IMG/VR virus record: IMGVR_UViG_3300043424_000354
Span: 44,632-108,631 of that record
Origin: a virus
Direction: 5' to 3' (one strand)
DNA: 64,000 bases
The notes under the pieces: model-generated
The model's input: only the letters and a program-made list of their open reading frames with translations
Databases searched by the model: none
Told to the model about the DNA's origin: nothing
Shown here: one piece after another, positions 32,544 to 59,688 of the stretch
Layout: each line of letters begins with the position of its first letter
Numbering within the stretch: the stretch's first letter is position 1
Made by a program: the position numbers and the translations under genes

Positions 32544-32549
32544 GATTTG

Positions 32550-32935: not shown

Positions 32936-32938
32936 ATC

Positions 32939-35590: not shown

Positions 35591-35598
35591 TATTTATT
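35591..35598 (-). promoter_or_regulatory. Late promoter AATAAATA placed for leaderless mRNA
   Basis: A one-mismatch late box on the minus strand at the very end of the carbamoyltransferase gene. Predicted +1 equals the A of the ATG at 35585. Confidence 0.45.
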
Positions 35599-37030
35599 AA
35601 AAGACCTTCACATTATACATGCCTTGAAACATCTTAGCGTCTTTCTCGTCATTAACCATCGGAAATCCTTTAATGTTCAGACTAGTATTGAGTAGCATCG
35701 GACAACCCGACCACAGATACCATTCGTTCAAGAGATTCCAAAGATCAGGATGCTGTTCTTTTGTTACAGTCTGGACGCGAGAAGTCCCGTCTGCATGAAC
35801 AATAGCAGGAAACTGATCAGGATATTTACATCTTGAAGTATATTGCATATACGGGGATGATTCAACTGGCATGTCAAAATATTCGCTTGCATGCTCTGCC
35901 ATGATGACAGGCGCGAATGGTCTAAATTTTTGCCTTCGTTTGATTGCATTTACTCTATCCTTAATATCAGATCTTGTGGGATCTGCGAGCAAACTCCGAT
36001 TACCCAACGCTCTGGGACCAAACTCCGCAGGTCCATTAGCAACACCAACTATACCTGATTTTCGCAGTTCTGTCAATAGATTTCCAATAGGATATGGTCC
36101 AGGAATATTTTCGCCGAGATATGGACCCTTCCAGTTTAGTTTCCTGCGATTATTAGCAGCGATTGCACCAAGACTGCTTCCTGCGTCTCCTGGGTTTGGC
36201 ATAATCCACAAATTTGGGAAGTATTCTATGGCAATAGAATTTGCGCTGCAGTTTAATGCACATCCACCCATGATAACAAGGTTGCGCTGTTTCCAGTTTG
36301 TCAGGTTGCCTGTTCTTACAATCAAATCTCTGAAGAGAACTTCGTAAACCCACTGCGCAGATGCAGCAATATCATAATGATCTTGCTCAGTATTAAGTTC
36401 TGGTTTCCACCACTGACAACCGCGATGTAGATTTTCTTCATTGTAAAGATTCAATAATTCAAGACCGTATTTGTTTTTACCGTATGCCGCCATACCCATG
36501 AGGATATATTCGTCCTCGTTCGGTTTTAACCCAACACGCTGTGTCATTGCTGAATAAAAAAGACCGATGGACTTGGGATATTCCATCGACCAAACCTTCT
36601 TCATCTTCTCACCAGATGCATTCCATATAGTGGCAGTATCAAACTCACCAATCGCATCGATTACTAACACAGCAGCATCATCGAACGGTGAAGTATAGAA
36701 TCCTGCCGCAGCGTGAGATTCATGGTGATATGCAAACTCTACGGGGATACCTTCCAGACCGAAGTGCTTCAGATACTGGCGAACGCTGAAACGAACTAGA
36801 CCTTGACCTGCTAGAAATCTGCGCATTCCTCGAAGTTTAGGTTTCTCATACCAGTGTATTACTTCTGGTTTACCAAACTCTAATGCTGCGTTGATCAGGT
36901 CAGCATTTAGATGCTTGTCGTTTTTGATTCCGCTGTAACGCTCTGCATGAGAGGCGAATAAAATTTCGTCACCCTCCACTACGGTAAGAGCAGCATCATG
37001 CGCTGCGGCAGAGATTCCCCATTCAATCAC
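35597..37030 (-). CDS. Carbamoyltransferase (NodU/CmcH/TobZ family)
   Basis: The GTG start at 37030 overlaps the preceding stop as GTGA; 477 residues. The N-terminal Kae1-like part begins W-G-I-S-A-A-A-H-D-A-A, then H-H-x-S-H-A-A-A-G-F-Y (metal/nucleotide site) and V-I-D-A-I-G-E. Next come G-G-C-A-L-N-C-x-x-N and N-P-G-D-A-G-S-S-L-G-A. The C-terminal YrdC-like part has N-G-x-x-E-F-G-P-R-A-L-G-N-R-S and F-R-P-F-A-P. It transfers carbamoyl from carbamoyl phosphate to a hydroxyl. The family acts on sugars, antibiotics and, in some phages, hydroxymethylcytosine. It is the last gene of the radical-SAM operon, but a TET-type enzyme at 58-60 kb offers an alternative substrate source. Confidence 0.9.
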   Translation of the reverse strand: MIEWGISAAAHDAALTVVEGDEILFASHAERYSGIKNDKHLNADLINAALEFGKPEVIHWYEKPKLRGMRRFLAGQGLVRFSVRQYLKHFGLEGIPVEFAYHHESHAAAGFYTSPFDDAAVLVIDAIGEFDTATIWNASGEKMKKVWSMEYPKSIGLFYSAMTQRVGLKPNEDEYILMGMAAYGKNKYGLELLNLYNEENLHRGCQWWKPELNTEQDHYDIAASAQWVYEVLFRDLIVRTGNLTNWKQRNLVIMGGCALNCSANSIAIEYFPNLWIMPNPGDAGSSLGAIAANNRRKLNWKGPYLGENIPGPYPIGNLLTELRKSGIVGVANGPAEFGPRALGNRSLLADPTRSDIKDRVNAIKRRQKFRPFAPVIMAEHASEYFDMPVESSPYMQYTSRCKYPDQFPAIVHADGTSRVQTVTKEQHPDLWNLLNEWYLWSGCPMLLNTSLNIKGFPMVNDEKDAKMFQGMYNVKVF

Positions 37031-38355
37031 TTATATAACCATTCAAGTTCTGGAAAGGTTTTCATGAAATCTGTATTTCGAACATTATCAAGTTTGGAAT
37101 ATTCTTCCATATGTTTTAAGTAATCTTCGCCGTCATAATCAAAGAAATCCATGTCTTTTTGATCAATTTTTCGCATTTCTTTGATTTTTTCTATTGAATT
37201 AATAATACTTTGTTTTTTATATGGATTAGAAGCATTCGGTATGACAGTATCCAAATACCATGTTTCAAACTCCTCTAACGACCGAATAACATATTCCCAG
37301 TGTTGCTGTGGAATATTCATTACATTCAAATGCTTTGGTGTTCGTATTAGATTGGTAAACAAGAAATATTCAAAGGTTGGATGATATTTGTTACTTTCCT
37401 GATATATACCTATAGAAAGAAATTCTTGAACCATTTCCTTTAATCTGTGCATATTTAAGGCACTCAATACAGGTGCAATACACAATTTATGCGTAGGATT
37501 ATGTTCAGTGTTTATTTCCTCGAAGCAATCATGAATTTTTTTGAGATTCTGTGAAACACTATCCCATTTTGCGGGCCACCGTATATAATTAAATCTATCC
37601 CCGACTTCATCGATACTCGCCATTATTAACACTGATTTAAACTGTTTCCAGTACTCTAGAACATCTTTATCCTTATTCTTCAGCGTGCTACAATTTGTAG
37701 AATATACAAGATCAATTTCTTTTGCTCGATCTGCCTCTATAAGTTTATCAAGAGTATACCAGTGATATTTTGACAACATCGGTTCGCCTCCAGCAAAATA
37801 AATGTTATCAACGCTGTCCAAATTATCATCAATTAATTGATATGCTATCGTATCGTCAGTTGGTTCGATAAATTTCGGAGAAGTTGGAGGTATATTTAAT
37901 TTTTGCATGAGATCATACCAACTAGAACTCAACGCATGACCGCAAGTAATGCATGCTTGGTTACAATGATTGGAGAATCTAAAATCAATATACTTCAATT
38001 TGTTCGTAGTCATTGATCCATCTTCAAGTAACTGACTCATGTAATAATCATAATTTGATTCGTATTGGGTGTTGCGCCACTTTCTTGAACTGGTATCGGA
38101 AAACTTTTCAGTGTCATAACAGAAAGAACATATTGGATTCTTTTCACCTGCTATCATTCTACGTCGAAATTCTTTATACTCTTCGCCATTCCAAATTTCT
38201 TCCCACGAAGAAACCATGTTTATATTTCCAAGTGGCGGTTTTGTCATGTCCCCCACGCAACAAGGCATAACATTTCCGTTAGGTGCCACGTATGTATGGA
38301 GCAATCCCAACATACAAAAAGAAGGATTTTCTTTGAGATTATAATCTTTAGTCAT
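37027..38355 (-). CDS. Radical SAM enzyme with N-terminal twitch domain (no. 6)
   Basis: 442 residues. The N-terminal auxiliary cluster-type region has C14, the C32-C33 pair after P-N-G-N-V-M, and C76-x2-C79. It is followed by the radical SAM core C131-x3-C135-x2-C138 (H-C-N-Q-A-C-I-T-C), F-A-G-G-E-P for SAM binding and S-T-N-C-S. Further core strands are visible (I-M-A-S-I-D-E), with a helical C-terminus. It is one of five proteins here with the same twitch-then-core order. It starts within the 34-residue ORF's stop region and overlaps the carbamoyltransferase start. The substrate is unknown; peptide, nucleotide and glycan targets are all possible for this fold. Confidence 0.85.
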   Translation of the reverse strand: MTKDYNLKENPSFCMLGLLHTYVAPNGNVMPCCVGDMTKPPLGNINMVSSWEEIWNGEEYKEFRRRMIAGEKNPICSFCYDTEKFSDTSSRKWRNTQYESNYDYYMSQLLEDGSMTTNKLKYIDFRFSNHCNQACITCGHALSSSWYDLMQKLNIPPTSPKFIEPTDDTIAYQLIDDNLDSVDNIYFAGGEPMLSKYHWYTLDKLIEADRAKEIDLVYSTNCSTLKNKDKDVLEYWKQFKSVLIMASIDEVGDRFNYIRWPAKWDSVSQNLKKIHDCFEEINTEHNPTHKLCIAPVLSALNMHRLKEMVQEFLSIGIYQESNKYHPTFEYFLFTNLIRTPKHLNVMNIPQQHWEYVIRSLEEFETWYLDTVIPNASNPYKKQSIINSIEKIKEMRKIDQKDMDFFDYDGEDYLKHMEEYSKLDNVRNTDFMKTFPELEWLYK

Positions 38356-38452
38356 AGATAAATGGATCCAATTTTTTCAATTTCTCTAATCTCTTCTTTA
38401 ATTTTCTTTTGCGAATTAATGCACGAAATAATTCTACTATCTTGTTAACCAT
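38348..38452 (-). CDS. 34-residue basic amphipathic peptide inside the radical-SAM operon
   Basis: ATG at 38452 with GGGAG six bases upstream. It overlaps the SGNH hydrolase stop by eight bases and the next radical SAM gene by eight bases. The peptide opens M-V-N-K-I-V-E-L-F-R-A-L-I-R-K-R-K-L-K-K and ends K-K-L-D-P-F-I-Y-D. It should form a cationic amphipathic helix with a short acidic/aromatic tail. The strong ribosome site and overlapping reading frames argue that it is translated. It could be a modified-peptide precursor, a membrane anchor or an enzyme partner; nothing distinguishes these yet. Confidence 0.65.
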   Translation of the reverse strand: MVNKIVELFRALIRKRKLKKRLEKLKKLDPFIYD

Positions 38453-39248
38453 CTATAACTCCCGTCGTGATTAATTCATCAAACATATGATTGGCGAATT
38501 TCTTGTGAACATCGACAACTGGATGCCCCCATCCATGCGTATATTTCTCTATCTCCTCCACGACCACGAAATTAGAAAGAGAAACTTCCGGAGACAACAA
38601 ATTATCAAACTTTACATTGTCCAACCAAGGTAATTTACTTTTATACCCGCTCAATACTAATCGAATTGATTGTAACGATTGAACTGTCATGACAATTTTC
38701 AACCTATTACCCAAAGATTTTGACAGGTAGTCTAGATATTTTGCATGCTTGATGTATTCCCACATCAAATTACAATCTGTTGCCCACGTGTCTAGTAATG
38801 CATCGTTCAACTTGGCACTGTGCGTCCATCGAGAATCTCCCACGAATTTGGTAATCATTATTCCGGAATCGGAAACCCAAGAAAATCTTACTGGACAAGT
38901 TAAACCAACAAAAATAAGATCAGTTTCTACGATTTCATTGGAAACAATATCGCGTTCAATGTTGTAGATAAACTCGTTTATACTAGTTCCCATTTTAGCG
39001 CGATTTGAACACGAGACCCCCAACCGCTCTGCGATATAATTAGGCCAAGCAAGTTGTGATGACAATAATGTGCAACGAATTCGCGTTTCCTCATTCCCAT
39101 AAACACCCTCGACGCAATGTATACCATGCTTGCGTTTGTAAGCATCAATTTCTTCATGCGGTTTGTTCAAGATAATAGCATCTGCCAGTTCTTGCCCAGC
39201 AGTGTAACTGCAACCATATGCAACTACTCTATTAATATTGAGTGCCAT
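38445..39248 (-). CDS. SGNH/GDSL-type hydrolase
   Basis: 267 residues. Block I is Y-G-C-S-Y-T-A-G with the candidate nucleophile Ser (residue ~14). A G-x-S-x-N equivalent appears as K-M-G-T-S-I-N, and block V is H-P-V-V-D-V-H-x-x-F-A, supplying Asp/His. Such enzymes remove acyl groups from sugars, peptides or lipids. Its first codons overlap radical SAM no. 5 by 25 bases. A second SGNH gene lies at 62188-62967. An esterase acting on the same molecule as the operon's other enzymes is inferred. Confidence 0.75.
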   Translation of the reverse strand: MALNINRVVAYGCSYTAGQELADAIILNKPHEEIDAYKRKHGIHCVEGVYGNEETRIRCTLLSSQLAWPNYIAERLGVSCSNRAKMGTSINEFIYNIERDIVSNEIVETDLIFVGLTCPVRFSWVSDSGIMITKFVGDSRWTHSAKLNDALLDTWATDCNLMWEYIKHAKYLDYLSKSLGNRLKIVMTVQSLQSIRLVLSGYKSKLPWLDNVKFDNLLSPEVSLSNFVVVEEIEKYTHGWGHPVVDVHKKFANHMFDELITTGVIDG

Positions 39249-40378
39249 TCTGGAAAACTTTCGTTAAAATGGTTGTTTCTATACTTATCATGCGAAGAAG
39301 TTACTCGCAGAAATTGATTAAATTCTTCTGAATCGGATATATTACTTCCTAACATATTAGTTATAACATCAAGTTTATCCGAGTATGCAAGCAGACGATC
39401 GCGTACGAGTTCTTTTTTATTTTCTGGTATGTTAGTTATACTGAGATGCGTAGGAGTAAATAACATATTGTAGTATATACCAATATGCGGAAAATTTTCT
39501 CGCATAAATTGATCAAAATTAACTGTATCCCAAATATTATATAGACTTACGGTATAGCAAAAATCAACTGTTATATTATTGTTTTCCTGCATAAGATCTG
39601 AATACTTACGAATAACATCCAGTACAGTATCCCATTTTGCTGGATATCTCATATATTCGAATGCAGAAGCAATACCATCAATGGAAAGAGAAATATTCAC
39701 TTTCTTAAATTGTTTTAGTATTGTTATTTGATCATCAGACGGATATATTGTTGAGTTGGTGTTAAAATGGAGTTCTTGCGTCTGCGCATTACCCTCGTTT
39801 ACGGATTTGCCGAGTATTTCCCACGATCGTTTAATTAATAGAGGTTCTCCACCGTAAAAGTCTATGGTGCTCGCCTTAGGTATCCAATCAACAAGAGTAT
39901 TCCACACATTAGTGTTGCTGTCATCATATATGTGCTGTATCTTTTTATATCTACTAAGAAAATCAGTTTTATTTTGCCAAGAAGCATTAATATCAAACCA
40001 TTCGTTTACCCAAGAACTGCTGCTATCTGGATTACAAGTTCTACAACGCAAGTTACATGCATTGCCAAGTTTTAAATCCAATAATTGCGGAGTTTCCGCT
40101 GCCAACAGATCTCTATTATTTTCTCTCTGTCGTTTGCTTTCTCTACCATTTCTTTCTTCAATCCAGCATATATCACAAGTTGGATTTTCAATTCCTGCTT
40201 CTAAATCCCATAGAAGTTTCTTTCTAGAATCAGATTGCCAAATATCTTGTAAAGAATCTTTACTTAGATTGTATTCCTCGCCTGCTTTATCGGCAAATGG
40301 TTTTGCTAAGCAACATGGTCTTACTCTACCGACAGTATCGATTTCTATACCACATAATGCCTGCAAACAGGTTTTCAT
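39224..40378 (-). CDS. Radical SAM enzyme with N-terminal twitch domain (no. 5)
   Basis: The start at 40378 (MKTCLQALCG) overlaps the preceding stop as ATGA; 384 residues. The N-terminal region has C4, C22-C23 and C68-x2-C71 with I-W-x-S-D-S-R-K-K before it, as in SPASM/twitch segments. The core is C108-x3-C112-x2-C115 (C-N-L-R-C-R-T-C), Y-G-G-E-P, T-N-S-T and S-I-D-G. It shares the R-Y-P-A-K-W-D motif with no. 6 and R-N-P-A-K-W with no. 4, so these three are close paralogues. The target is unknown. Confidence 0.85.
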   Translation of the reverse strand: MKTCLQALCGIEIDTVGRVRPCCLAKPFADKAGEEYNLSKDSLQDIWQSDSRKKLLWDLEAGIENPTCDICWIEERNGRESKRQRENNRDLLAAETPQLLDLKLGNACNLRCRTCNPDSSSSWVNEWFDINASWQNKTDFLSRYKKIQHIYDDSNTNVWNTLVDWIPKASTIDFYGGEPLLIKRSWEILGKSVNEGNAQTQELHFNTNSTIYPSDDQITILKQFKKVNISLSIDGIASAFEYMRYPAKWDTVLDVIRKYSDLMQENNNITVDFCYTVSLYNIWDTVNFDQFMRENFPHIGIYYNMLFTPTHLSITNIPENKKELVRDRLLAYSDKLDVITNMLGSNISDSEEFNQFLRVTSSHDKYRNNHFNESFPEWHSILIE

Positions 40379-41577
40379 AATTGTTCGGCCCAAGGATGCG
40401 TCTCAAAAAGATTTTGTCCGCGAATACCGTCCAAAAGTTTCTGTTTTTCCACAAACTTTTTCTGCAACACACTGTTAGTCAAATTAGATGTATTACTTTC
40501 AAGGTAATTGATTGTGTTTCTAATTTCATGACGATTGATTGTAATTTTTTCTTTAATGTTTTTTAGTTCTTGTAGATAGGAATAATAATAGGACTCCGGC
40601 ATTACATCTGCTTGTAAGAAATCCGGACGGTTAACAGGAATAACACCCATAGAAAGACCAAGTTCTTCGCACCACAAGAATAAATCACGAAGCGAGTTAT
40701 TAGACAAAGTGAGATTTTGCAAAGTCGGCGTCACACCGCATTCAATATTTTTGAATTCGGAAATTTCCGACATCAGCAATTTCATATTTCCTTCGATGGT
40801 TGTCCATTTAGCAGGATTGCGGATATACTCATATTGTTTACCCATTCCGTCGATACTCACGTTCAACTGAACAAACTTAAACTTCTTCCACATATCAATG
40901 AATTTCTTACCCAAGAAAATACCATTTGTATTGTATACGAGTTTAATTTTTGAAGAACTACCCGTCTCAATCAAGTAAGTCAGAAGTTCTTCATGCGCAT
41001 CAATAATAAGAGGTTCCCCTCCGATCATATAGATTTCCTGCAGAGTATCTAGATGTGGAGTAACAACATCACGCATATTGACGTTATCAACCCACTCAGA
41101 GGAATCATATCCCATCTCATAATATTCTCTAGACTCAGCATGAGTTTGAACTTCCTTGCCAATCAGAGAACTACTAAACGGTGCGCACATTCTGCACCTG
41201 AGATTGCATTTTTTACCCAGATCAAATTCTATTCTGAAAATTCCCAGTGGTTGCTCATCTTTTATTTGCTCGTAGATATCTGAATATCTCTGATTAATTG
41301 ACTGACGAAAACTCTGCATACCAGAATCTTCCATCTTCCAGCAGCGTCCACACAAAGGATGCCTTTTTCCTTCTAACATATATTCGCGCAATTCTTTGTG
41401 CGTGTGTGTATTCAGAAATCTGTCGACAGAATAATCTTCAAGTTGATTTATATTTGCCTTAACACCCTTCTCGCTTTCGATCTCAGCATAGATTGCATTA
41501 CAGCAAGGTCGCAATCCTCCATTAGATCCGATACTCAACAACATCCAAGGATAGGCGCATACTGTGTTATTTTCCAT
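40375..41577 (-). CDS. Radical SAM enzyme with N-terminal twitch domain (no. 4)
   Basis: 400 residues. Auxiliary cysteines are C7, C25-C26 (after S-N-G-G-L-R-P) and C76-x2-C79. The core motif is C124-x3-C128-x2-C131 (C-N-L-R-C-R-M-C), then I-G-G-E-P, Y-N-T-N-G and V-S-I-D-G-M. The last ~100 residues are helical, with the W-A-E-Q-L tail overlapping the next gene. It is a near paralogue of nos 5 and 6. The start overlaps no. 3 by 11 bases. Expect an iron-sulfur radical enzyme with a second cluster; the substrate is unknown. Confidence 0.85.
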   Translation of the reverse strand: MENNTVCAYPWMLLSIGSNGGLRPCCNAIYAEIESEKGVKANINQLEDYSVDRFLNTHTHKELREYMLEGKRHPLCGRCWKMEDSGMQSFRQSINQRYSDIYEQIKDEQPLGIFRIEFDLGKKCNLRCRMCAPFSSSLIGKEVQTHAESREYYEMGYDSSEWVDNVNMRDVVTPHLDTLQEIYMIGGEPLIIDAHEELLTYLIETGSSSKIKLVYNTNGIFLGKKFIDMWKKFKFVQLNVSIDGMGKQYEYIRNPAKWTTIEGNMKLLMSEISEFKNIECGVTPTLQNLTLSNNSLRDLFLWCEELGLSMGVIPVNRPDFLQADVMPESYYYSYLQELKNIKEKITINRHEIRNTINYLESNTSNLTNSVLQKKFVEKQKLLDGIRGQNLFETHPWAEQL

Positions 41578-42847
41578 CGGATTGTTCTCGTTCTTTTTGT
41601 TTGATTATCCCACGACTTGTTGTTCCTAGTTCGCCCTGATCCAGATTGTTATATTCTTCACCACAACAAGCACTGCACTGATAACTTCTCATTTCATGTT
41701 CGCGGTTAAAACTCAACGGAAGATACCGTTGATACAAAGGCGAAGCAATGATTTCTTCGATTGAATTTTTATGAAGAGAAATAGATTCCATACCACCATT
41801 CAAATCGATCATTCTTACCGATGAATCGTTTGTATTCCAAGTATCTGAATTTGATCTCCACTGTTCCCCGCCAAGGAAACAGCACGGATACACATTACCT
41901 GCACCATCGACAAAGATTTCATTCAAATTTTGATACTTGGATTTTCTTGCTCTACAAACAATCCCTAATGAGTTATGTTTGATTGAAGTATATTCCTTGC
42001 TCTCTGGATCGAAAACGTATATTTCCTTTTTAGATTTTGGATCCGGTGATAGTCTGTTAAACTCATCATTTGTAATATACTGCGGAATTAATCCCTTTGC
42101 TGCACGTTTGAACTCTACCGAGTTTTCATTTTGATAGATAGGATTAGTTGGTTGCTGCAGAGTATGGGTGTGCTGATCATTATCATAAACATCGAAGTAT
42201 CCCATACCGTCTTTGTATGAATGCCACCTTGTTGTCTTCTTGATATTAAAGAATGTAAATCCCAATTCCTCTGCAATCTTTCTTGCTTCTTCTACCTGAT
42301 GTTCATTGTGCTTGAATACAATATAATCCCATCGCGCCTTACCGCCAGCAGAGGTAAATGCTTTCATGTTTTCGTAAATCTTATCGAAATTAGTATTTCT
42401 TCTATAGAGATGGTTTGTATCCCACAATCCGTCTACTGAAAAGATGACATAATCCTGTCGTGTTCCATCCGGACCGCCATTCATAACGGTTGCCAATTCT
42501 TCCCACCAAGACTTAGATCTGGCGCTCCCATTAGTATGAATAACCAACCCAACGCGATCATTACACGATCTAATATATTTGTAAATTTCTAACGTGTCTT
42601 TTGCAGCGACTGGATCGCCGTAGTTACCGCATGCATAAATTCTTCGCATTTGCGAAAGGAATTCCGGAGAGAACCAAGTTTTGAACTGTTCTAGAGTGAT
42701 TTCCGTCATTGGTAAAATAGGATTCAGCATATTTCCGTGACTTATATAACGCGGACACATTGGGCATGCAGCATTACATCTAGTCGTCAGTTCTAAATGC
42801 ATACCAGTAAGTTCGCGATGAGATGCGTATAACGGTTCAACCATCAT
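41567..42847 (-). CDS. Radical SAM enzyme with C-terminal SPASM domain (no. 3)
   Basis: 426 residues. Unlike its neighbours, the core is at the N-terminus: C24-x3-C28-x2-C31 (R-C-N-A-A-C-P-M-C-P), preceded by M-H-L-E-L-T-T. The C-terminal ~130 residues form a SPASM-type domain: I-V-C-R-A-R, V-D-G-A-G-N-V-Y-P-C-C-F-L-G and a final C-S-A-C-C. The family includes peptide- and sulfatase-maturing enzymes. It overlaps both flanking genes. The different architecture suggests a distinct step, possibly on a peptide. That is inference only. Confidence 0.85.
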   Translation of the reverse strand: MMVEPLYASHRELTGMHLELTTRCNAACPMCPRYISHGNMLNPILPMTEITLEQFKTWFSPEFLSQMRRIYACGNYGDPVAAKDTLEIYKYIRSCNDRVGLVIHTNGSARSKSWWEELATVMNGGPDGTRQDYVIFSVDGLWDTNHLYRRNTNFDKIYENMKAFTSAGGKARWDYIVFKHNEHQVEEARKIAEELGFTFFNIKKTTRWHSYKDGMGYFDVYDNDQHTHTLQQPTNPIYQNENSVEFKRAAKGLIPQYITNDEFNRLSPDPKSKKEIYVFDPESKEYTSIKHNSLGIVCRARKSKYQNLNEIFVDGAGNVYPCCFLGGEQWRSNSDTWNTNDSSVRMIDLNGGMESISLHKNSIEEIIASPLYQRYLPLSFNREHEMRSYQCSACCGEEYNNLDQGELGTTSRGIIKQKEREQSDGK

Positions 42848-44246
42848 TTAATTCCTTGCACATGTAATAAAAATTCTCGTATGCTGGGAACAATTCCAAC
42901 AGACCAAGACCAACAGTTCTCTTATCGTATTCAGTAAAGAATTTATAAAAATCCTTTCTACCGTTTTCAATCAATTTTTCATCAATGCGAGGACCGCCTT
43001 GGTAAAAGTAATTCCGAACACGCTTCATCTTTTCGAACTCTTGTTCCTGAAATCCATGCACTAATCCTGGTGCAGAGATATTATCCTGAATGAACAGAAG
43101 ATCCGAATCAATATACTTTCCGAACTCTTCCTTTGGTAGAAGATTGATCATCCAGTGAGGAGGTTCTTTCAGATATGGAGTGTCAAACATAATACGATTT
43201 TCATAAGGGTTGACATTCCACTTCTTACGAAGTTCTAGAATCTTTTCTAAGAATGGGCGGAAAGAAGCAACACACAGAATATTATAAGTGCACATAATAC
43301 TAATTGAAACATTAGGAACAGTTTCTAGAAATGTTTCAACATTCTTCAACCAAAGATCCTGATTCAATCCTCGACGCATATACTCTGCTTGCGGACCCCA
43401 CGCTTCAAGAGAAGTATAGAGTTTAAAGTCCTTGATCTTTTTCTTTTCTAAAAGATTTTTGGCAGAATCCGATAGACGTTGAACTCGATTATTACTAACA
43501 CCAAGATTACTGTTGATATTCAATTCTAAATGTTTCGTATCATCACCTTCTTCCAACATCTTCATGAGTTTCATGGTGTTGGGATTGATCATCGCTTCAC
43601 CACCCGTAAGACGAAGAACGCGAAGATCTTTCTTTAGATCAGGCCACCACTTCCAGAATGCATCGACGTATGGATTTTCTTCGTCGTCGCGGTAAACCTT
43701 TGTATTCTTCAGGTAATCAATTCCGTATTGATTGTAACTGATGTCATAGTTACCATGTTCGCGAATTTCCTGTTCCCATAGAGATGATGCTTGCGGGCAA
43801 CAATAACCGCATTTGAAGTTGCAACCATTACCGAAACTTACTTCTAAGAAATATGGATTATAATCCTGATCCCAAGGAAGGTTTTTTACCCTTTCGGTTT
43901 CTTCCTTTGCATCAATCCAAGTACTCGCATTATGAAACATTCTATCGCTGAAGTGTTCTCCGGGAAGATTTTCCACGTTCCAGCAGTAATAACATTCTTC
44001 TGGTCGACCGCCCTCGAGCATGATCTTGCGTTGCTGCTTTTTCCACTTTGTATTGTGAAGAGCAGAAGGGTTCTCTGCAATTTCTTCAAGAGGAATGCGT
44101 TGTGGTCGAGGGTGGTAACAACTATGATTGTCACCCATATGCAAATATAGAGTTTCGTGCCTCCATTTCTGCAGACAGAAACCGTTTCCGACTGTATTAA
44201 GAGTATCGCGTACTTCGCGAACTCTGTCTAGATAACTATTGCTCAT
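42837..44246 (-). CDS. Radical SAM enzyme with N-terminal twitch domain (no. 2)
   Basis: I start at 44246 (MSNSYLDRVREV); 469 residues. The N-terminal region has F-C24-L-x-K-W, H-S-C43-Y-H-P and C85-x2-C88-W. The core is C142-x3-C146-x2-C149 (C-N-F-K-C-G-Y-C), then L-T-G-G-E-A and I-N-S-N-L-G. It is closely paralogous along its whole length to no. 1: the same H-S-C-Y-H-P, E-N-P-x-x-L-H-N-T and R-P-x-x-C-x-Y-C-W elements recur. Nos 1 and 2 form a subfamily distinct from nos 4-6. The substrate is unknown. Confidence 0.85.
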   Translation of the reverse strand: MSNSYLDRVREVRDTLNTVGNGFCLQKWRHETLYLHMGDNHSCYHPRPQRIPLEEIAENPSALHNTKWKKQQRKIMLEGGRPEECYYCWNVENLPGEHFSDRMFHNASTWIDAKEETERVKNLPWDQDYNPYFLEVSFGNGCNFKCGYCCPQASSLWEQEIREHGNYDISYNQYGIDYLKNTKVYRDDEENPYVDAFWKWWPDLKKDLRVLRLTGGEAMINPNTMKLMKMLEEGDDTKHLELNINSNLGVSNNRVQRLSDSAKNLLEKKKIKDFKLYTSLEAWGPQAEYMRRGLNQDLWLKNVETFLETVPNVSISIMCTYNILCVASFRPFLEKILELRKKWNVNPYENRIMFDTPYLKEPPHWMINLLPKEEFGKYIDSDLLFIQDNISAPGLVHGFQEQEFEKMKRVRNYFYQGGPRIDEKLIENGRKDFYKFFTEYDKRTVGLGLLELFPAYENFYYMCKELNDG

Positions 44247-45759
44247 TTTTGCATCTCTCATAAAAATTAATTAATTCAGGAAACGTTTGTTTAAAATTCG
44301 TGTCTCTGCGTCTATCTAACTCGTCAACGTATTGAGAAAAGCGAATCATATCCACATACAATTCTTCTGGTTTTTGCCCTGCTCGCATTATATCTAGGTC
44401 GCGCTGAACCTTGTCAATTTCATACTGCCTGAAACCAGTAAAGCACAGAGCAGCAGGATAAACATTGTCAGAGGTATCGAGATTATCTCTCATAAACTGC
44501 AGGCAATCCTCCATAACATCAATCATCTCAGTTCCAGCAAGCATCTTGATATTCAACCATGTTGGTGTGTGTAAAATGGGAATATCAAACCAAATTCGTT
44601 GACGCTTCTTACGAACTATAGAGGGATGCCCTTCTATCCCCATCATCTTTTCTGGTTGCGCGTCAGAACCGAACTCTTGGCGCAATTTTAAAATCCACTG
44701 TAAAAATTGTTTTAGGTTCGGGACGCTCAAGATATTAAAGGTGTTAATAAATGTAACATTGGTACCGTCGGTGGATCTCAAGAATTCTCTGACATTTGCA
44801 TCCAAACGTTGAAAATTCATACCTGTTCGAATGTATTCTGCTTGTTCTCCATAAGAATCGCAAGATACGAACAATGAGAAATGTTTGATCGCGGGAGCAA
44901 CATACGAATGATTGCCGCTGTCGTAGTTGAATTTGTCAGGATCTTCCCAGATTCTAACCTGTTCTAATTTCTGAACTGAAGAAACAAACTTGTCAAACAA
45001 TTCTTGCTTTGGTGGGCACAGATTACTAGTAATACTCAACTCAAGATCAGCATTGGGATGCTTGTCTACATAATCAAGAACCTTGAACGTGTTATTATCC
45101 ATTAAAGGTTCTCCGCCAGTCATGCGGAAAATTTTAAGGTTCTTATAGAGTTCGGGCCACCATTTCCAGAATGCTTCGACGTAGGGATTTTCTTTTTGAG
45201 AAACTTTCTTTGGCATCAATCCATATGAAGTCAATGCACCAAGATCATTGTGCGCTGCTTGCTTTAAAATATATGGACCAAACTTCTCTGCTTCTTCGTG
45301 CCAAGCAGTACTAAGATGAGGACTGCAGTAGATGCATTTAAAGTTACACGCCTGATTGAAGTTTACTTCCACGTATGCGGGAGTAATTTGATCATCGATG
45401 TCTTTGTTAAATGCAATCTTCTCAAAATCAATAGAGTTCCACCATTCGCTGCTGCGATAGTGTCGATCACTAGTATGCCCTGCGTCCTCGATACGCCAAC
45501 AATACGAACATCCCTTTGGTCGTTCGCCCCTGCGCATCATAGCACGTTCTTCGATTTTTTGTGGAGTGTTGTGAAGTAATCCAGGATTTTCTGCTAACCC
45601 ATCAACAGGAATGTCATGCGCGGGCGGGTGATAGCAACTATGCGTCTTACCATTAGTAAGGTGCATACTTACCATATTCCATTTTGCTAGGCAGAAAGTT
45701 GGACTTATGTCATCAAGTTTTCTTTTTGTCTCTTGCGCAGAATCACTATAATCCGTCAT
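44236..45759 (-). CDS. Radical SAM enzyme with N-terminal twitch domain (no. 1)
   Basis: 507 residues. N-terminal cysteines are C23 (F-C-L-A-K-W-N), C42 (H-S-C-Y-H-P-P-A) and C84-x2-C87-W. The core motif is C138-x3-C142-x2-C145 (C-N-F-K-C-I-Y-C), then M-T-G-G-E-P-L-M-D and I-T-S-N-L, and a long C-terminal region with aromatic motifs (F-T-G-F-R-Q-Y-E). It is the first radical SAM gene of the operon, and its ATG overlaps the methyltransferase-like stop as ATGA. It pairs with no. 2 as recent duplicates. The substrate is unknown. Confidence 0.85.
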   Translation of the reverse strand: MTDYSDSAQETKRKLDDISPTFCLAKWNMVSMHLTNGKTHSCYHPPAHDIPVDGLAENPGLLHNTPQKIEERAMMRRGERPKGCSYCWRIEDAGHTSDRHYRSSEWWNSIDFEKIAFNKDIDDQITPAYVEVNFNQACNFKCIYCSPHLSTAWHEEAEKFGPYILKQAAHNDLGALTSYGLMPKKVSQKENPYVEAFWKWWPELYKNLKIFRMTGGEPLMDNNTFKVLDYVDKHPNADLELSITSNLCPPKQELFDKFVSSVQKLEQVRIWEDPDKFNYDSGNHSYVAPAIKHFSLFVSCDSYGEQAEYIRTGMNFQRLDANVREFLRSTDGTNVTFINTFNILSVPNLKQFLQWILKLRQEFGSDAQPEKMMGIEGHPSIVRKKRQRIWFDIPILHTPTWLNIKMLAGTEMIDVMEDCLQFMRDNLDTSDNVYPAALCFTGFRQYEIDKVQRDLDIMRAGQKPEELYVDMIRFSQYVDELDRRRDTNFKQTFPELINFYERCKNEQ

Positions 45760-46340
45760 TTATATCCGACTGCCATATATCTATAGAAATGCCCGCACTT
45801 CAACATACCTGCATACTGCGGTTCTTTAATATTGTTGATTTCTAAGAATTGCTCCAGATTATCGGCAAGACGAACATGCTCAGGATTTTCTAGATTATTT
45901 CCTTGGACGATATATTTAGTTCCTGTTGGAATAGAGTTCCACCAAGCATCATAAACTTCTTGGGTCACATGCTCGCTGCTGGTGTTGATCACCAAATCGG
46001 GATATGAATAATTGAGTGGCATACCATTTTTCATGTCGTGCTGACGAAATGTGATTTCATGATAGCACTCATCGATAGCAGCAAATACCTTTTTACATTC
46101 GGGGTCTAAGTCGGTGGTCAGAATTCTAGCATCGGGGAACTTATGCGCAATAAACTGCGCAAGAACTCCATACCATCCACCGAAAATTATGATAGATCTA
46201 TCCATGTGAGTTACATGTTCGAGTAACCACTTCTTGCTCTCGATCTGACTCGGCCAAAAGTTCTCCGAGAATCGATATGCATTCTCTGGATTATTACGGA
46301 TATATTGCATCCAAAGCATTACTACATCAAAATTAACCAC
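45756..46340 (-). CDS. Class I SAM-dependent methyltransferase-like protein
   Basis: 194 residues. Motif I is I-I-I-F-G-G-W-Y-G-V-L-A, followed by an acidic T-T-D-L-D-P-E-C (motif II, Asp binding SAM ribose), D-M-K-N-G and D-L-V-I-N-T-S-S-E-H (motif IV region). No target-recognition domain is visible and it is short, so a small-molecule, peptide or sugar substrate is likelier than duplex DNA. It overlaps the gene before it by eight bases and radical SAM no. 1 by four. It is probably part of the same modification pathway. Confidence 0.7.
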   Translation of the reverse strand: MVNFDVVMLWMQYIRNNPENAYRFSENFWPSQIESKKWLLEHVTHMDRSIIIFGGWYGVLAQFIAHKFPDARILTTDLDPECKKVFAAIDECYHEITFRQHDMKNGMPLNYSYPDLVINTSSEHVTQEVYDAWWNSIPTGTKYIVQGNNLENPEHVRLADNLEQFLEINNIKEPQYAGMLKCGHFYRYMAVGYK

Positions 46341-46743
46341 GGCGCATCCTCGCTACTTCATGTGCTTGTTCTTCGTTGATAATAGGAACAGCATTCGACT
46401 TGTGCATCGTTGCGATACCTTTGATCAGAGTTCCCGTATATACGTTTTCCTTACGACCAACCATAACACCAATGCCGACTCCACCCTCATACTTAGGTGT
46501 TTCGCGGCGATAGGTCGTAGCATCCATTGGACCTTTGACTCCACCTTTTAGTTTAGTGTTAGATTTACCTTGACGATACGCGACATACTCGTCGAACGTC
46601 TTAGTTTTAGCACCAAGACGCTTCATCTGCTTGTTGTAATCGACCCAATCCTGAGCATACCTGGAGGTCACACCCTTGTTCGCAGTCTTGCGCTTCCTGG
46701 TGTTCGTGGTGGTATACGCATGGGACATAAGATGCATAGTCAT
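46333..46743 (-). CDS. Conserved marine phage protein, first gene of the radical-SAM operon
   Basis: The start is placed at 46743 (VM-TMHLMSH, preceded by AAAGGAAA); 136 residues. It is basic with K-R-K-x-A-N-K-G, W-V-D-Y-N-K-Q-M-K and Y-V-A-Y-R-Q-G-K. The C-terminal half is highly characteristic: G-T-x-I-K-G-I-A-T-M-H-K-S-N-A-V-P-I-I, which I recall in small proteins of many T4-like marine phages. Function is unknown; it may not belong functionally to the radical SAM set. It follows an early promoter by about 30 bp. Confidence 0.7.
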   Translation of the reverse strand: MTMHLMSHAYTTTNTRKRKTANKGVTSRYAQDWVDYNKQMKRLGAKTKTFDEYVAYRQGKSNTKLKGGVKGPMDATTYRRETPKYEGGVGIGVMVGRKENVYTGTLIKGIATMHKSNAVPIINEEQAHEVARMRRG

Positions 46744-46773: not shown

Positions 46774-46802
46774 CTTATACCCTACTGGAGTAAAAATGTC
46801 AA
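46774..46802 (-). promoter_or_regulatory. Early promoter of the 11-kb radical-SAM operon
   Basis: TTGACA at 46797-46802, a 17-nt spacer and TATAAG at 46774-46779 on the minus strand, preceded by GGC. It is back-to-back with the plus-strand promoter at 46819-46847. It would transcribe everything down to the carbamoyltransferase. Confidence 0.75.
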
Positions 46803-46818
46803 GCCATAATTTAGCGGC

Positions 46819-46847
46819 TTGACAATTTGATTAAAATGGAGTAGAAT
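46819..46847 (+). promoter_or_regulatory. Early promoter, TTGACA-N17-TAGAAT
   Basis: The -35 is at 46819-46824 and the -10 at 46842-46847, with GCGGC upstream. It drives the 92-residue gene at 46874 and, with the divergent minus-strand promoter, forms an early control region. Confidence 0.75.
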
Positions 46848-47824: not shown

Positions 47825-47994
47825 TGTCTACATCAATCCACGACCAGGAACTCGATACGCACTTCGGTCGAGTCGAGAGCGAACTCTACTCACTAAAGGA
47901 AGAACCATCCGAAGATATTGTGTATTTTGATTTCAAGAATCCAAATACATTCCTACTTACTTGGACGTTGCACGATATATTCCGTCGAAGTTAG
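47824..47994 (+). CDS. 56-residue protein converging on the cyclase gene
   Basis: I use the ATG at 47824 (MSTSIHDQELD), overlapping the previous stop. 56 residues, charged, ending F-L-L-T-W-T-L-H-D-I-F-R-R-S. Its last 38 bases overlap the 3' end of the minus-strand cyclase gene, so the two genes converge with no terminator between them. The family is unknown. Confidence 0.6.
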   Translation: MSTSIHDQELDTHFGRVESELYSLKEEPSEDIVYFDFKNPNTFLLTWTLHDIFRRS

Positions 47995-50008
47995 CAGGAG
48001 GTTCTCCCTCCATGCGCTCAAGCATCATATCGTAATAATTAACTAACTCACCTTGCCAGCACTTCTTTAAGTCGCTGGCAAATTGTTTAGCAACTTCCCA
48101 TTTACCTGCACGATATAAAGTCAAGAACTTCTCGTGTTGAGTTTGTCCTAGATGATCAAAGTTTTCTAGAACAGTATAGATTCTAGCAGGTTCAGTCTTA
48201 CCCTTGACTGCGATAAGATCAAGTTCGACTACTTGGTATGTATCCAGAACCTGCTCAGCAGTCTCGGGTCCAATGACGATTTTAACGCCGTAAGGTTTGC
48301 TTTGACCTTCGAGACGAGAGGCAAGATTAACCCCATCACCAAGGCAAGTATAATCAAAACGCTGATCGCTGCCCATATTGCCAACAACCACAGTGGCAGT
48401 GTTAATGCCAAGACCCATTCCAAAGGGTGGGGTTCCTTCTGCCACGACTTCTGCATTAAACTTCTCCAAATCTTTAAGCATCTGGAAAGCAGTTCTTACT
48501 GAATCCAAAGCATGTTGTGGGTTATCAACGGGAGCATTCCAGAATGCCATCTGAGCATCCCCGATATACTTATCTAGCGTTCCCTTGTTCTCTAGAATCG
48601 CTCGAGTCATTACTGTCATATAACGATTCATGATTGAAGTAAGACCTTCTACATCTTCACCGTAGTGTTCCGAAATAGCAGTAAATCCACGAACGTCGGT
48701 GAACATAATTGACAGTTGTTGTTTTGTTCCACCCAACTTGAGCAACTCTGGTTGTTTCTGTAGTTGAGCGACAAGATCTGGTGACAGATAAGTTCCGAAC
48801 TGCTTCTTAATTTGCTGCTTCTGTAGATATTCACTTATGAATTTGGCAGTGTAGATATGGATATAGATTAGCGCGATCGCGAAAACGTTAAACGTCACAT
48901 CGAGAAGAATACCCTTACTCGCGAATAGATATACTGGTAGATAGAAATATCCACCGAGTAAAACAGCAATATAAATTATAGAGAAACGAAATCTCGAGAG
49001 AATGATCAATGCAAGAGCAAGACCCAGAAAAGCAGCAAGATCTGCAAGTTGACCCCACACAGGAATCGAAACAGAGTCTCCATTTATCAGAGTTTCAAGA
49101 ATACTCGCCTGAAGGAAGTGGGGATGTTGCGCACCTGATGGAGTCGCTACAGGATTCGAAATACCAGCAGCAGTTACGCCAACAATCACAATTTTACCAT
49201 TCAGGTCAGGTAAAGGATCCTCTCCAATTTCGACTGACGAAAATTGGTAATTCGGATTAACAAACACGCGACCGTATTCATCGGTCTTTATAGTATCAAA
49301 TTGAGGAACACGTAATGCTTCAACACCAGTCTGATTTATCTTCGCTTGATACGAAGAGTCTCCTGCAGCTACACGCAGCATCTCTATCGCAAATGCAGGA
49401 TAGTATTCGCCATTTGATTGAGATAGAAGAGGAACTCGCCTCACAACCCCATCAGTCTCGGGTAGAGTCGACGTTATTCCTACACCGACAGCTGCTTCTT
49501 GCAGAACTGGAATATTACTTAGAACGCATGGGTATTGAGGAAGAAATTCGTTCGGTTGTCCGTCGCCGACGACAGCAACGCCAGTCCGAGCAATATTCTG
49601 GACTCCCTTACATGAATCAGTTGTTGTCTGACTCAGGACTACTGGATACTGCGTCAGAGTAGTCGCAAGAACTCCGTCAGTCCCCATCCGATCAGACTCA
49701 GGCATAAGTATAGTGCTACCAACAAGAGAAGCCCCTCTACCATAAATGTCACCAATAATTTTAGCATGGACCTCGCGTGGAAACGGCCACTGACCATATT
49801 TCTCAATTGCTTTCTCCCCGATATTGACAGTAACGATTTGTTCCGAATGCTGTGGCGAACCAAGCATTAAATAATCATAAAACTTCAGTCTGGTTGATTC
49901 AACCAGATAAGGATCAGCAAGTTTTACCGTAAGCAAAATACTAAAAGTAAATAACGCCAACCATGGCGAGAGTAGAACTTTTTTAGTTTTTTGTATAAGA
50001 GTATCCAT
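47957..50008 (-). CDS. CHASE2-domain class III adenylate-cyclase-type protein
   Basis: 683 residues, last gene of the curli-like cassette. One N-terminal membrane helix (residues ~12-30), a periplasmic CHASE2 sensor (~35-318) with F-Y-D-Y-L-M-L and W-P-F-P-R, then three membrane helices (~320-395) and a cytosolic cyclase domain (~425-620). Catalytic residues look intact: metal-binding D438 (F-T-D-V-R-G-F) and D484 (K-Y-I-G-D-A), adenine-selecting K480 and T554, transition-state N561 and R565 (G-V-N-L-A-S-R). It therefore should make cAMP. Bacteria often encode CHASE2 cyclases beside FecR-domain proteins, as here. A membrane cyclase in a lytic phage is unusual. Confidence 0.92.
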   Translation of the reverse strand: MDTLIQKTKKVLLSPWLALFTFSILLTVKLADPYLVESTRLKFYDYLMLGSPQHSEQIVTVNIGEKAIEKYGQWPFPREVHAKIIGDIYGRGASLVGSTILMPESDRMGTDGVLATTLTQYPVVLSQTTTDSCKGVQNIARTGVAVVGDGQPNEFLPQYPCVLSNIPVLQEAAVGVGITSTLPETDGVVRRVPLLSQSNGEYYPAFAIEMLRVAAGDSSYQAKINQTGVEALRVPQFDTIKTDEYGRVFVNPNYQFSSVEIGEDPLPDLNGKIVIVGVTAAGISNPVATPSGAQHPHFLQASILETLINGDSVSIPVWGQLADLAAFLGLALALIILSRFRFSIIYIAVLLGGYFYLPVYLFASKGILLDVTFNVFAIALIYIHIYTAKFISEYLQKQQIKKQFGTYLSPDLVAQLQKQPELLKLGGTKQQLSIMFTDVRGFTAISEHYGEDVEGLTSIMNRYMTVMTRAILENKGTLDKYIGDAQMAFWNAPVDNPQHALDSVRTAFQMLKDLEKFNAEVVAEGTPPFGMGLGINTATVVVGNMGSDQRFDYTCLGDGVNLASRLEGQSKPYGVKIVIGPETAEQVLDTYQVVELDLIAVKGKTEPARIYTVLENFDHLGQTQHEKFLTLYRAGKWEVAKQFASDLKKCWQGELVNYYDMMLERMEGEPPANFDGIYRATSK

Positions 50009-54132: not shown

Positions 54133-54141
54133 GACTTCTCC

Positions 54142-57496: not shown

Positions 57497-57504
57497 TATT
57501 TATT
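57497..57504 (-). promoter_or_regulatory. Possible late promoter AATAAATA
   Basis: A one-mismatch late box at the end of the glycosyltransferase gene. Predicted +1 near 57491 gives a ~16-nt leader with AAGGA before the 56378-57475 gene. Confidence 0.4.
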
Positions 57505-58312
57505 AGAATAGATCCTCTAAGGAAGATTCCACCTTACGATACTTCTTACCTCGATCGTGCAGTTTCAGTTCTGCATGCCCAGTAGTTTCGCGGATATACA
57601 TTGTGCAAAGTTCTGGGAAGGTATCGGCGATAACCTGAATACTGTTGTGAACATATTCCTTAGTACGGAAATCCTGAAGTCCACCTTCTTCCTTATAATA
57701 CCGCGACTTGACTGTATAATTGTCTAGACGAACGAGAACACCATTCTTCACATACTGACGAAGCGAGTATTCATAATCTTCACCGTGGTTAGTGATGCGA
57801 GCAAGGTAATCGTCATGCTCAACAATAACACCAAACATCGAAGCAATGATATAGCAGAGATCGTTGTAAACACGATCCTTCATGAAGTATGCGTTAGCAG
57901 CAGCATAGATCCCGAAAGTCTTAGCGCCTACCTTATCGCACTCGTCGAACCCTTGCTGAATAATCTCCTTTTCGAGATCTTCAACTCGACCCAACTTCTG
58001 TTCGCTAATCTTTACCTGCACTTCTTCAATGTCATCATCGAACATCATCAGACGTGTTCCTTCAGGATACCACTTCTCGATAAAGTTGCGCTGAGCACCA
58101 ATAGTAGGAACACCGCGAATAATCTCAATATCCTTTGCGTAAGGATTATCCTTCAGCGCATTAGCATAACGATCGTACTCACCTTCTTCCTGATCATTAA
58201 CAAAGATCTTAATCTTTGCTGGATCAATGTTATACGATTCAAGAACCTTTAACGTCTTATTCTGAACAGTTTGTTCGCGATGATAAGACGGGATAGCAAT
58301 ACAATAATCCAT
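57503..58312 (-). CDS. Glycosyltransferase paired with the TET-type dioxygenase (TAGT-like)
   Basis: 269 residues, GT-A-like fold. It starts Y-C-I-A-I-P-S-Y-H-R-E-Q-T, then F-V-N-D, G-A-Q-R-N-F-I and the metal motif F-D-D-D-I-E-E (Asp92-94). H-G-E-D-Y-E-Y-S-L-R (catalytic-type acid) and R-Y-Y-K-E follow. This pattern matches TET/JBP-associated glycosyltransferases that add sugar to hydroxymethyl bases in phage DNA. Its ATG overlaps the dioxygenase stop as TAATG. The C-terminus S-S-L-E-D-L-F is identical to the dioxygenase's and resembles a sliding-clamp-binding tail. The sugar is unknown. Confidence 0.82.
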   Translation of the reverse strand: MDYCIAIPSYHREQTVQNKTLKVLESYNIDPAKIKIFVNDQEEGEYDRYANALKDNPYAKDIEIIRGVPTIGAQRNFIEKWYPEGTRLMMFDDDIEEVQVKISEQKLGRVEDLEKEIIQQGFDECDKVGAKTFGIYAAANAYFMKDRVYNDLCYIIASMFGVIVEHDDYLARITNHGEDYEYSLRQYVKNGVLVRLDNYTVKSRYYKEEGGLQDFRTKEYVHNSIQVIADTFPELCTMYIRETTGHAELKLHDRGKKYRKVESSLEDLF

Positions 58313-59688
58313 TAAAACAAATCCTCTAGTGATGAACCCACTTCATATGCCTTGGGGTGATATTTCTCGACTATCTCTCGCCCAAGTTTTTCTTCGAGAT
58401 AATCATACCATTCCTGGTCGTCCCACATTCCAGGCGATACGCCATTCCACAGTGGACGATAGAATTTATGTTCCTTGTTAATCCTGCGATCAACAACATA
58501 CTGTTCTCGTGTTTGCTCGTACTCAAACGAACCAAGTTCTAACATTGCTTCTCGGAAATAACATACGAGCGAGATACGTTCAGCATCTGGTCGAGTCAAC
58601 ACAATCTCAGTGTTACCATGCATAATTTCATGGTTATTGACCAGCAGAAGATCGCCTGGACGCACATTGACAGCAATACGATATTCCGGGAATACTAGAT
58701 AACCGCCAGTATAGTCCCCACTACCAACAACAAGCAGGTTGCTGAGACCATCGTCGAGATCGCCAGCATCGCGATGAGCTGCTGTTCGGAAGGACTTGTT
58801 GACGGTGATTGTAGTGAATACCGTTTCAGGGACCACGAATCGACCATCGATTTTATCCACGGCACTCTTTTGATTAGACCAACGCCAAGGGAGGAGTTCT
58901 TTAAAACCGCGATCGAGAGATTGAAGAAAAGGGAAGGAAAGCTTGAACTTATCAAAATTATCGCGGGTATAAGAAGTAGCACGCCCAAAAGGAATTCGAG
59001 GGTAGCGGTCATACCATCCCGCAACTCCAGAAAAAACCGACTTTGCATAGTTAGTCGTGGAGATCCACTTGTTGGCAACCTTTGTTGCGTCATTTACGAT
59101 TTCCTCTTTGCTCTTACCTTCCAGACTGTCGACCCATGTATCGAACCAACCAAAGTATTCTGGATAAACCTTACAAACCTGACTGCGCAACCAGACTGCA
59201 CCACGTGTTTCATCTGCGTTCGAACGAGGTGCGCCTGCATGCTTAGCACGAATGCTCTCGATTGATACGTCATCGATTAACTTACCGCTGGTATCCATCA
59301 GATAGTCTAGAACTTCTAGTTCGTAGTCAGTTACCCAGTCGCGACCACCGCGACCTTCAACACCAAGCATCTCGCCACGTGGACCTGCTGCCAGACCACG
59401 ATTCTGCGATTCGGTTGCTGCTTCACGCAGACCGATATATGCCTGATCCTGTTCTTCCTTGGTGAACCAGTTCTTACGAAACTTAAATGCGATACGTCGT
59501 TCATCTGCGCCAACGTCGCAGTCGCTACAATCCTTATCGCAACTTACCTTTGTTTCGAGACCACAGTCTGCTTCCATATAGCAATCGGTGTCTTCATTGA
59601 TTACCGTGTCGAAATGACTCTCATCTAGATATTGACCGAGCAGATGCTCGCAATCTAGTTTAGACTCAGCGACAATAACTTTTACCAT
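58312..59688 (-). CDS. TET/JBP-family 2-oxoglutarate/Fe(II) dioxygenase
   Basis: 458 residues. Fe(II) ligands are H305-x-D307 (T-A-A-H-R-D-A-G-D) and H357 (I-M-H-G-N), with R371 for 2-oxoglutarate (E-R-I-S-L-V-C-Y-F-R-E). Between them are N-L-L-V-V-G-S-G-D-Y-T-G-G-Y-L-V-F-P and R-P-G-D-L-L-L-V, the TET/JBP core. A Cys-rich N-terminal region (C36, C42, C50, C54, C57) may bind metal. It should hydroxylate the methyl of 5-methylpyrimidine in DNA, feeding the adjacent glycosyltransferase. A cytosine-5 methyltransferase to make the substrate is not in this window. It ends S-S-L-E-D-L-F. AAGGAG precedes the ATG. Confidence 0.88.
   Translation of the reverse strand: MVKVIVAESKLDCEHLLGQYLDESHFDTVINEDTDCYMEADCGLETKVSCDKDCSDCDVGADERRIAFKFRKNWFTKEEQDQAYIGLREAATESQNRGLAAGPRGEMLGVEGRGGRDWVTDYELEVLDYLMDTSGKLIDDVSIESIRAKHAGAPRSNADETRGAVWLRSQVCKVYPEYFGWFDTWVDSLEGKSKEEIVNDATKVANKWISTTNYAKSVFSGVAGWYDRYPRIPFGRATSYTRDNFDKFKLSFPFLQSLDRGFKELLPWRWSNQKSAVDKIDGRFVVPETVFTTITVNKSFRTAAHRDAGDLDDGLSNLLVVGSGDYTGGYLVFPEYRIAVNVRPGDLLLVNNHEIMHGNTEIVLTRPDAERISLVCYFREAMLELGSFEYEQTREQYVVDRRINKEHKFYRPLWNGVSPGMWDDQEWYDYLEEKLGREIVEKYHPKAYEVGSSLEDLF

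Follow-up and report, generated by a model that had tools for sequence, protein, structure and literature searches.

An exchangeable radical-SAM and carbamoyltransferase cassette in a T4-like virus and its possible role in glycan tailoring

The operon described here, at positions 35597-46743 on the minus strand of a 64,000-base stretch of viral DNA, encodes six radical S-adenosylmethionine (SAM) enzymes together with a carbamoyltransferase, an SGNH-like protein and a small methyltransferase-like protein. The stretch, called the window below, covers bases 44,632-108,631 of the 108,631-base IMG/VR record IMGVR_UViG_3300043424_000354, which is possibly incomplete. The virus is T4-like. Its terminase shares about 49% identity with those of cyanophages of the Kyanoviridae, and the virus has no close cultured relative. 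Comparison with related loci indicates, with high confidence, that the operon is an exchangeable, co-expressed tailoring cassette. Interchangeable radical-SAM modules have already been reported; what is new here is that cassette exchange is directly seen. As for the product, we favor a phage-specified glycan carried by the host envelope or by the virion, a proposal that could equally turn out right or wrong.

Exchange of the cassette interior between related phages

Relatives of radical-SAM gene no. 1 occur in 498 viral stretches of IMG/VR. The 80 best matches to this gene were taken as loci, 50 of which are non-redundant by gene no. 1; since they are best matches, the frequencies given below describe near relatives. 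Across the relatives, the methyltransferase and carbamoyltransferase genes that form the two ends of the cassette are kept and the middle differs. Two sets of orthologous interiors can be recognized, one in the window and in L011, L012, L014, and L056, the other in L013, L015, and L018. For the first three interior genes, members of the second set are 84-97% identical to one another, vs. about 30% to the first set. The carbamoyltransferase is 73-76% identical in close relatives having a different interior, and the methyltransferase-like protein is 71-91% identical in relatives of both types.

The limits of the exchanged part are visible when L012 is compared with L018. Upstream DNA is 88-89% identical over 3.4 kb; from there to a point about 770 bp inside gene no. 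1, the identity is 78%. There follows an interior of about 8 kb that is almost unalignable and encodes different radical-SAM sets. Identity then resumes just past the start codon of the carbamoyltransferase gene, at 91% over 1,412 bp of nucleotide sequence. Hence, the exchanged part starts in the 5′ half of gene no. 1 and extends as far as the carbamoyltransferase. Moreover, the L012 carbamoyltransferase is 94% identical in protein sequence to that of L018, which is of the other type, vs. 76% to that of the window, which is of its own type. The enzyme is thus nearer to the other type, as predicted if recombination takes place in the cassette ends. By analogy, the swap of an interior between constant ends resembles what is seen at loci that set surface-sugar or DNA-modification chemistry.

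The operon genes are under purifying selection, with ratios of nonsynonymous to synonymous substitution rates (dN/dS) of 0.03-0.35 against close relatives where they could be computed, dS being often near saturation; for radical-SAM no. 2 the ratio is 0.035 (vs. L012). The SGNH-like gene is the most variable one, with only 26-39% identity even to relatives whose neighboring genes are at 57-92%, also within one cassette type. One could imagine that recombination merely heaped up unrelated enzymes that have no common product, and gene order and number do vary among phages. However, the genes overlap, depend on a single promoter, keep their order within each cassette type and are all under purifying selection, so that we regard such an assemblage as highly improbable.

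Radical-SAM blocks are known in other T4-like phages. In the Campylobacter phages CP220 and CPt10, the same site is occupied by different clusters of 10-12 genes, both of which include five genes of radical-SAM type as well as an amidinotransferase, and CP220 also has two nucleotide-sugar-transferase-like genes; the authors speak of an “interchangeable module” (PMC2853527). There too, a radical-SAM block and a tailoring transferase are swapped as a unit between related phages. The CP220 partners (radical-SAM, amidinotransferase, nucleotide-sugar-transferase-like) are the same as those of the islands carrying gene no. 1, though the phage is unrelated. In contrast, the window's system has constant ends, visible breakpoints, a carbamoyltransferase closing the block and another protein family. 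Indeed, tblastn found no gene no. 1 relative in CP220 and CPt10, and no twitch-family match was found there for no. 4.

Pelagimyophages, which like the window's virus are marine and T4-like and carry CsgG/CsgF, gain radical-SAM cassettes in a hypervariable host-recognition cluster with glycosyltransferases and tail fibers (PMC7029224). These cassettes are named only in passing, and the window's block sits elsewhere, between phrog_27048 and genes of pyrimidine-dimer-glycosylase and PhoH type. Another marine T4-like genome, TARA_ERS488813_N000010, has 12 radical-SAM genes. They were read as iron-sulfur (Fe-S) metabolism, and the part of the article consulted describes neither cassette exchange nor tailoring partners (PMC5332604). 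To the same extent, none of these three sources assigns a function to the radical-SAM cassettes (PMC2853527; PMC7029224; PMC5332604).

In cultured phages, no relative of gene no. 1 was found among 50,697 phage records, and gene no. 4 gave only matches of about 22-26% identity, in vibriophages and one single-cell marine contig. In the cultured vibriophage K566 (L132, 11977-16379), three radical-SAM genes are clustered, and a PagP-like lipid A gene lies at a distance of about 6 kb.

Organization of the operon and its enzymes

Every open reading frame (ORF) of the operon was confirmed in place (Table 1). A first-pass annotation, made from the letters without database searches, had described an unbroken chain of overlapping genes transcribed from an early promoter. 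Neighboring genes do overlap, by 4-26 bp, with one exception that had been missed, an 89-bp gap at 38356-38444 between the SGNH-like gene and radical-SAM no. 6. A sigma-70-type promoter is also found. Its -10 box ends only 4 bases ahead of the ATG at 46770, to which the first ORF remains open; because of this proximity, the previously chosen start at 46743 is the likelier one. The T4-type late motif TATAAATA was not found just upstream of the operon, and several copies precede other genes of the same strand. With a sigma-70-type promoter and no late motif just upstream, early expression is plausible, as judged from sequence. In relatives, the distribution of TATAAATA was tried as a guide to late or early expression and set aside: the motif is rarer within islands than in the preceding tail genes, but read-through is possible. 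The operon promoter stands back to back with a divergent promoter of the same type. A single palindrome supplies both -35 boxes, one on each arm, and may serve as a common operator.

Table 1. Positions in the window of the operon genes, the promoter region and a separate pair of predicted DNA-modification genes
Position	Strand	Feature	Supporting match or motif
35597..37030	-	O-carbamoyltransferase (NodU/CmcH/TobZ family), conserved right end of the cassette	PF02543, PF16861, phrog_1601
37027..38355	-	Radical SAM no. 6, N-terminal twitch	NF033640 331 bits; Radical_SAM + SPASM-type Cys region
38445..39248	-	SGNH-like protein, motif-level only; most variable gene of the cassette	GCSYTAG block I
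39224..40393	-	Radical SAM no. 5, N-terminal twitch	NF033640 289 bits
40375..41577	-	Radical SAM no. 4, N-terminal twitch	NF033640 309 bits
41567..42847	-	Radical SAM no. 3, C-terminal SPASM	PF04055 residues 19-187, PF13186 residues 309-394
42837..44261	-	Radical SAM no. 2, N-terminal twitch	NF033640 283 bits
44236..45759	-	Radical SAM no. 1, N-terminal twitch; island marker in other phages	NF033640 311 bits
45756..46340	-	Small class I methyltransferase-like protein, conserved left end of the cassette	NF010703 E 7e-4 only
46333..46743	-	First gene of the operon, phrog_27048	phrog_27048 E 9e-20; ORF open to 46770
46774..46802	-	Sigma-70-type promoter TTGACA-17-TATAAG	11/12 consensus bases
46797..46847		Palindrome TGTCAAGCC...GGCTTGACA with the -35 boxes of the operon promoter and of a divergent plus-strand promoter (46819-46847)	
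57503..58312	-	TAGT, TET-associated glycosyltransferase, outside the operon	PF20691 E 1e-10
58312..59688	-	TET/JBP-type dioxygenase, outside the operon	PF12851 E 4e-24

All six radical-SAM proteins contain the CxxxCxxC motif. Five of them, at 283-331 bits, exceed the whole-protein cut-off of 170 bits of the NCBIfam model NF033640 (N_Twi_rSAM), while no. 3 reaches only 46 bits and has its Radical_SAM domain first and its SPASM domain C-terminal. Twitch motifs further split these five into nos 1-2 (‘SCYHP...CxxCW’) and nos 4-6 (‘PCC...CxxC’). The count of six enzymes, their assignment to the N-terminal twitch or C-terminal SPASM type, and the two subfamilies with no. 3 apart, all proposed in the first-pass annotation, are therefore well founded. 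The cluster cysteines of no. 1 (C23, C42, C84, C87, C138, C142, and C145) do not vary among 48 homologues from phages and bacteria and so give no sign of non-functional motifs. We know of no function assigned to the N-twitch radical-SAM family. Two routes to an identity were abandoned: a sequence search of the PDB gave weak matches to viperin or MoaA, and a viperin-type nucleotide antiviral was rejected at 23-29 bits against NF038283, whose cut-off is 180.

The carbamoyltransferase is the best-defined partner. It matches PF02543 (E 3e-40) and PF16861 (E 9e-51), both above cut-off, as well as phrog_1601 (E 9e-99), and it has the catalytic motifs HHESHA and EFGPRALGNRS, which bears out the original assignment. 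Its PDB relatives include the novobiocin carbamoyltransferase, GdmN, and TobZ. It shares both domains and the HxxxH and GPRALGNRS motifs with the TobZ, NodU, and novobiocin enzymes and differs from them in being shorter (477 amino acids). The two other partners are recognizable at the motif level. The SGNH-like protein, earlier called a hydrolase, has block I, but no Pfam, PHROG or NCBIfam match was obtained and the Asp/DxxH of block V is not visible. Similarly, the methyltransferase call agrees with a weak NCBIfam match.

Glycan tailoring and competing explanations

The idea that the operon modifies one molecule in several steps came with the first-pass annotation and is partly supported. At least two radical-SAM genes of the family are found in 44 of the 50 non-redundant loci and at least three in 40, with a mean of 4.7 per locus. 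Hence, in phages, these genes are not isolated among unrelated neighbors, even if their order and number differ. Together with the conserved cysteines, this makes a co-transcribed set performing multi-step tailoring of one molecule the best reading.

The neighborhoods of the islands point to carbohydrate chemistry, as do the similar partner genes of the CP220 module. Of 49 non-redundant loci, 29 have a member of a protein family named c0 no more than two genes ahead of gene no. 1. This family is GT-A-like, with an invariant DxD motif, and its structural model has a predicted local distance difference test score (pLDDT) of 90. The next family upstream, c1, matches the GT8 enzyme glycogenin (E 7e-8). 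At least one of c0, GT8-like c1, UDP-glucose dehydrogenase, NeuB, epimerase or FkbM is present in 35/50 loci. The Pfam tally of island genes includes carbamoyltransferase, epimerase, GDP-mannose dehydratase, and UDP-glucose dehydrogenase. NeuB-like, FkbM methyltransferase, and amidinotransferase-like genes are also found, as are genes that we label sulfotransferase-like and adenosine 5′-phosphosulfate-kinase-like from their sequences. Control genes of the same loci belong to tail-fiber, endolysin, and replication families, with no sugar-nucleotide families in the top 25. A further cluster, c2, was considered as a glycosyltransferase and dropped, its likeness having been seen by eye only, with no PDB match.

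In many loci, the order is tail-fiber genes, glycosyltransferase-like genes, c0, gene no. 1 and the rest of the array. The early promoter had been put forward as making a purely virion-structural target less likely; this argument is weak, since the island directly follows tail-fiber genes in the commonest relatives. The tailored carbohydrate-type structure is most likely a glycan, borne by the host envelope or by the virion's own fibers. The pathway may be pictured as follows. Glycosyltransferases encoded elsewhere in the genome would assemble the sugar or attach it. On this sugar, every radical-SAM enzyme would then catalyze one C-H reaction, a dehydrogenation, an epimerization, a deoxygenation or a C-methylation. 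The methyltransferase and the SGNH-like protein could add or remove small groups and, finally, the carbamoyltransferase would cap a hydroxyl. Variety of the product may be selected because it alters the surface recognized by receptors, rival phages or defenses. If the product is indeed a glycan, phages hold natural-product-grade sugar chemistry for altering host or virion surfaces.

Several observations weigh against glycan tailoring. The operon holds no glycosyltransferase, the partner glycosyltransferases mostly come from relatives, and a c0 homologue was not found in the window's own record. The best PDB matches of the c0 model are GT-A glycosyltransferases, which speaks for this reading, but their modest TM-scores (about 0.3) count against it. 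The AlphaFold2 model of no. 1 (pLDDT 93) gave no Foldseek match at E <= 0.001, and hence no close structural relative. Among its weak matches, enzymes of sugars or nucleotides (viperin, BlsE, DesII, MoaA) occur side by side with enzymes of peptides (anSME, SuiB), a mixture that also argues against the proposal. In Bdellovibrionota, the family has varied neighbors, in many cases housekeeping genes (ATP synthase, dnaX, obgE), and glycan genes occur at some sites only. Lastly, a TET and TAGT gene pair lies near the operon, as discussed below. In favor of the glycan reading, the rest of the record encodes an FkbM methyltransferase and an epimerase; TAGT is its one further glycan-type gene. At 38078-41689 of the record (window -6553 to -2942), several tandem plus-strand genes, beside tail-fiber-like genes, look like paralogous glycosyltransferases; three of them were scanned, without a Pfam match.

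Bacterial homologues of gene no. 1 occur in Bdellovibrionota chromosomes, with 3-26 family matches per genome, some in arrays, and at one Pelagibacterales locus (L123) rich in glycosyltransferase-like genes. A Bacteriovoracaceae locus (L114) pairs c0 with a gene no. 1 relative, and at L155 family copies have a carbamoyltransferase gene and a glycosyltransferase-like one in their vicinity. The neighborhoods L114 and L123 were not retained as proof of a glycan role, most Bdellovibrionota arrays being among housekeeping genes. One bacterial metagenome-assembled genome (that of L125), with 26 family matches, has seven consecutive N-twitch radical-SAM genes right behind its ATP synthase operon (L142, 5736-15518).

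The same data can be read as peptide or protein maturation, in which twitch and SPASM enzymes would act, in the manner of maturases of ribosomally synthesized and post-translationally modified peptides (RiPPs), on a peptide or on a protein of the virion, for instance a tail fiber. SPASM/twitch enzymes commonly act on peptides, the radical-SAM proteins have weak matches to many RiPP maturases, the peptide S-glycosyltransferases SunS and ThuS head the c0 fold list, and the position behind tail-fiber genes would also fit. However, every RiPP model stays far under its cut-off. No precursor peptide appears among the operon's listed ORFs, which very short ones may escape, and the Pfam scan showed no recognition domain. 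Furthermore, the islands are accompanied by sugar-nucleotide enzymes rather than by peptidases or exporters. We judge peptide maturation to be quite unlikely.

Much the same low probability applies to host reprogramming, in which an auxiliary metabolic pathway, broadly understood, would alter one of the infected cell's small molecules, lipids or cofactors. Some islands do contain fatty-acid desaturase and PaaD-like Fe-S genes, and one study reads Fe-S-rich marine phages in this way (PMC5332604). Nevertheless, interior exchange between conserved ends would be unusual for a core metabolic function, and sugar-nucleotide genes recur in the islands.

A third alternative is DNA hypermodification. 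There, TET would oxidize a methylpyrimidine, TAGT or another transferase would add a sugar, and the radical-SAM enzymes and the carbamoyltransferase would remodel it, so that restriction or CRISPR nucleases fail. In the window, TAGT adjoins a TET/JBP dioxygenase (57503-59688), and a search of the record gave no cytosine C5-methyltransferase. Reportedly, Iyer and colleagues recognized TET and TAGT as a DNA-modification pair, which is likely what these two genes are. The pair lies 12 kb from the operon and recurs in the closest relatives, and cassette exchange would suit selection by restriction systems. Besides, a phage carbamoyltransferase of the same family is known to act on 5-hydroxymethylcytosine (5hmC) in DNA (PMC8670742).

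Since this reading would need TET, the enzyme is expected to recur with the islands. Only four of the 49 island-bearing records have it, each from the window's clade, and the 45 records without it include some of 180-363 kb; TET was consequently rejected as an obligatory partner. TAGT is likewise present in 4/49 records, thymidylate synthase in 6/29, and cytosine C5-methyltransferase in 0/14. Carbamoylation of 5hmC itself was set aside. The window enzyme is 27% identical to the 5hmC carbamoyltransferase and has ALGNRS instead of ALCNTT in the region named as discriminating (PMC8670742), and no thymidylate synthase homologue (PF00303) was found in the 108-kb record, possibly a fragment. As records may be fragments, such absences lower the probability of DNA hypermodification without removing it, least so for the window's clade; on balance, we consider it unlikely. 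If the product were a DNA modification, it would represent a new hypermodification route.

A narrower proposal sees the operon as a chemotype locus. Radical-SAM sets would be swapped between fixed ends so as to vary a carbamoyl-capped, radical-remodelled group, borne here by a TET/TAGT-derived DNA sugar and directed against nucleases. Its probability is small, about that of peptide maturation. Whatever the substrate, the exchangeable cassette provides a handle. Phages that are alike except for the interior are expected to differ in a single chemical trait, and a comparison of both cassette types should therefore reveal what is modified.

Other features of the window

A permuted transfer-messenger RNA (tmRNA) gene of the two-piece type is found at 32547-32963 on the minus strand, with the tag AANDNVAFEMRLAA (Rfam RF04321, 75 bits). 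Permuted two-piece tmRNAs are typical of alphaproteobacteria. The gene thus hints at an alphaproteobacterial host.

At 47957-54591, genes for a CHASE2-guanylate cyclase, FecR, a curlin-repeat protein, CsgG, and CsgF stand in a row and form a curli-secretion-like set. CsgG/CsgF operons are known from pelagimyophages, and the accessible part of that work does not mention the cyclase and FecR (PMC7029224). Finally, the phage-encoded protein at 55231-56346 matches DruA of the Druantia defense system (PF14236, E 8e-11).

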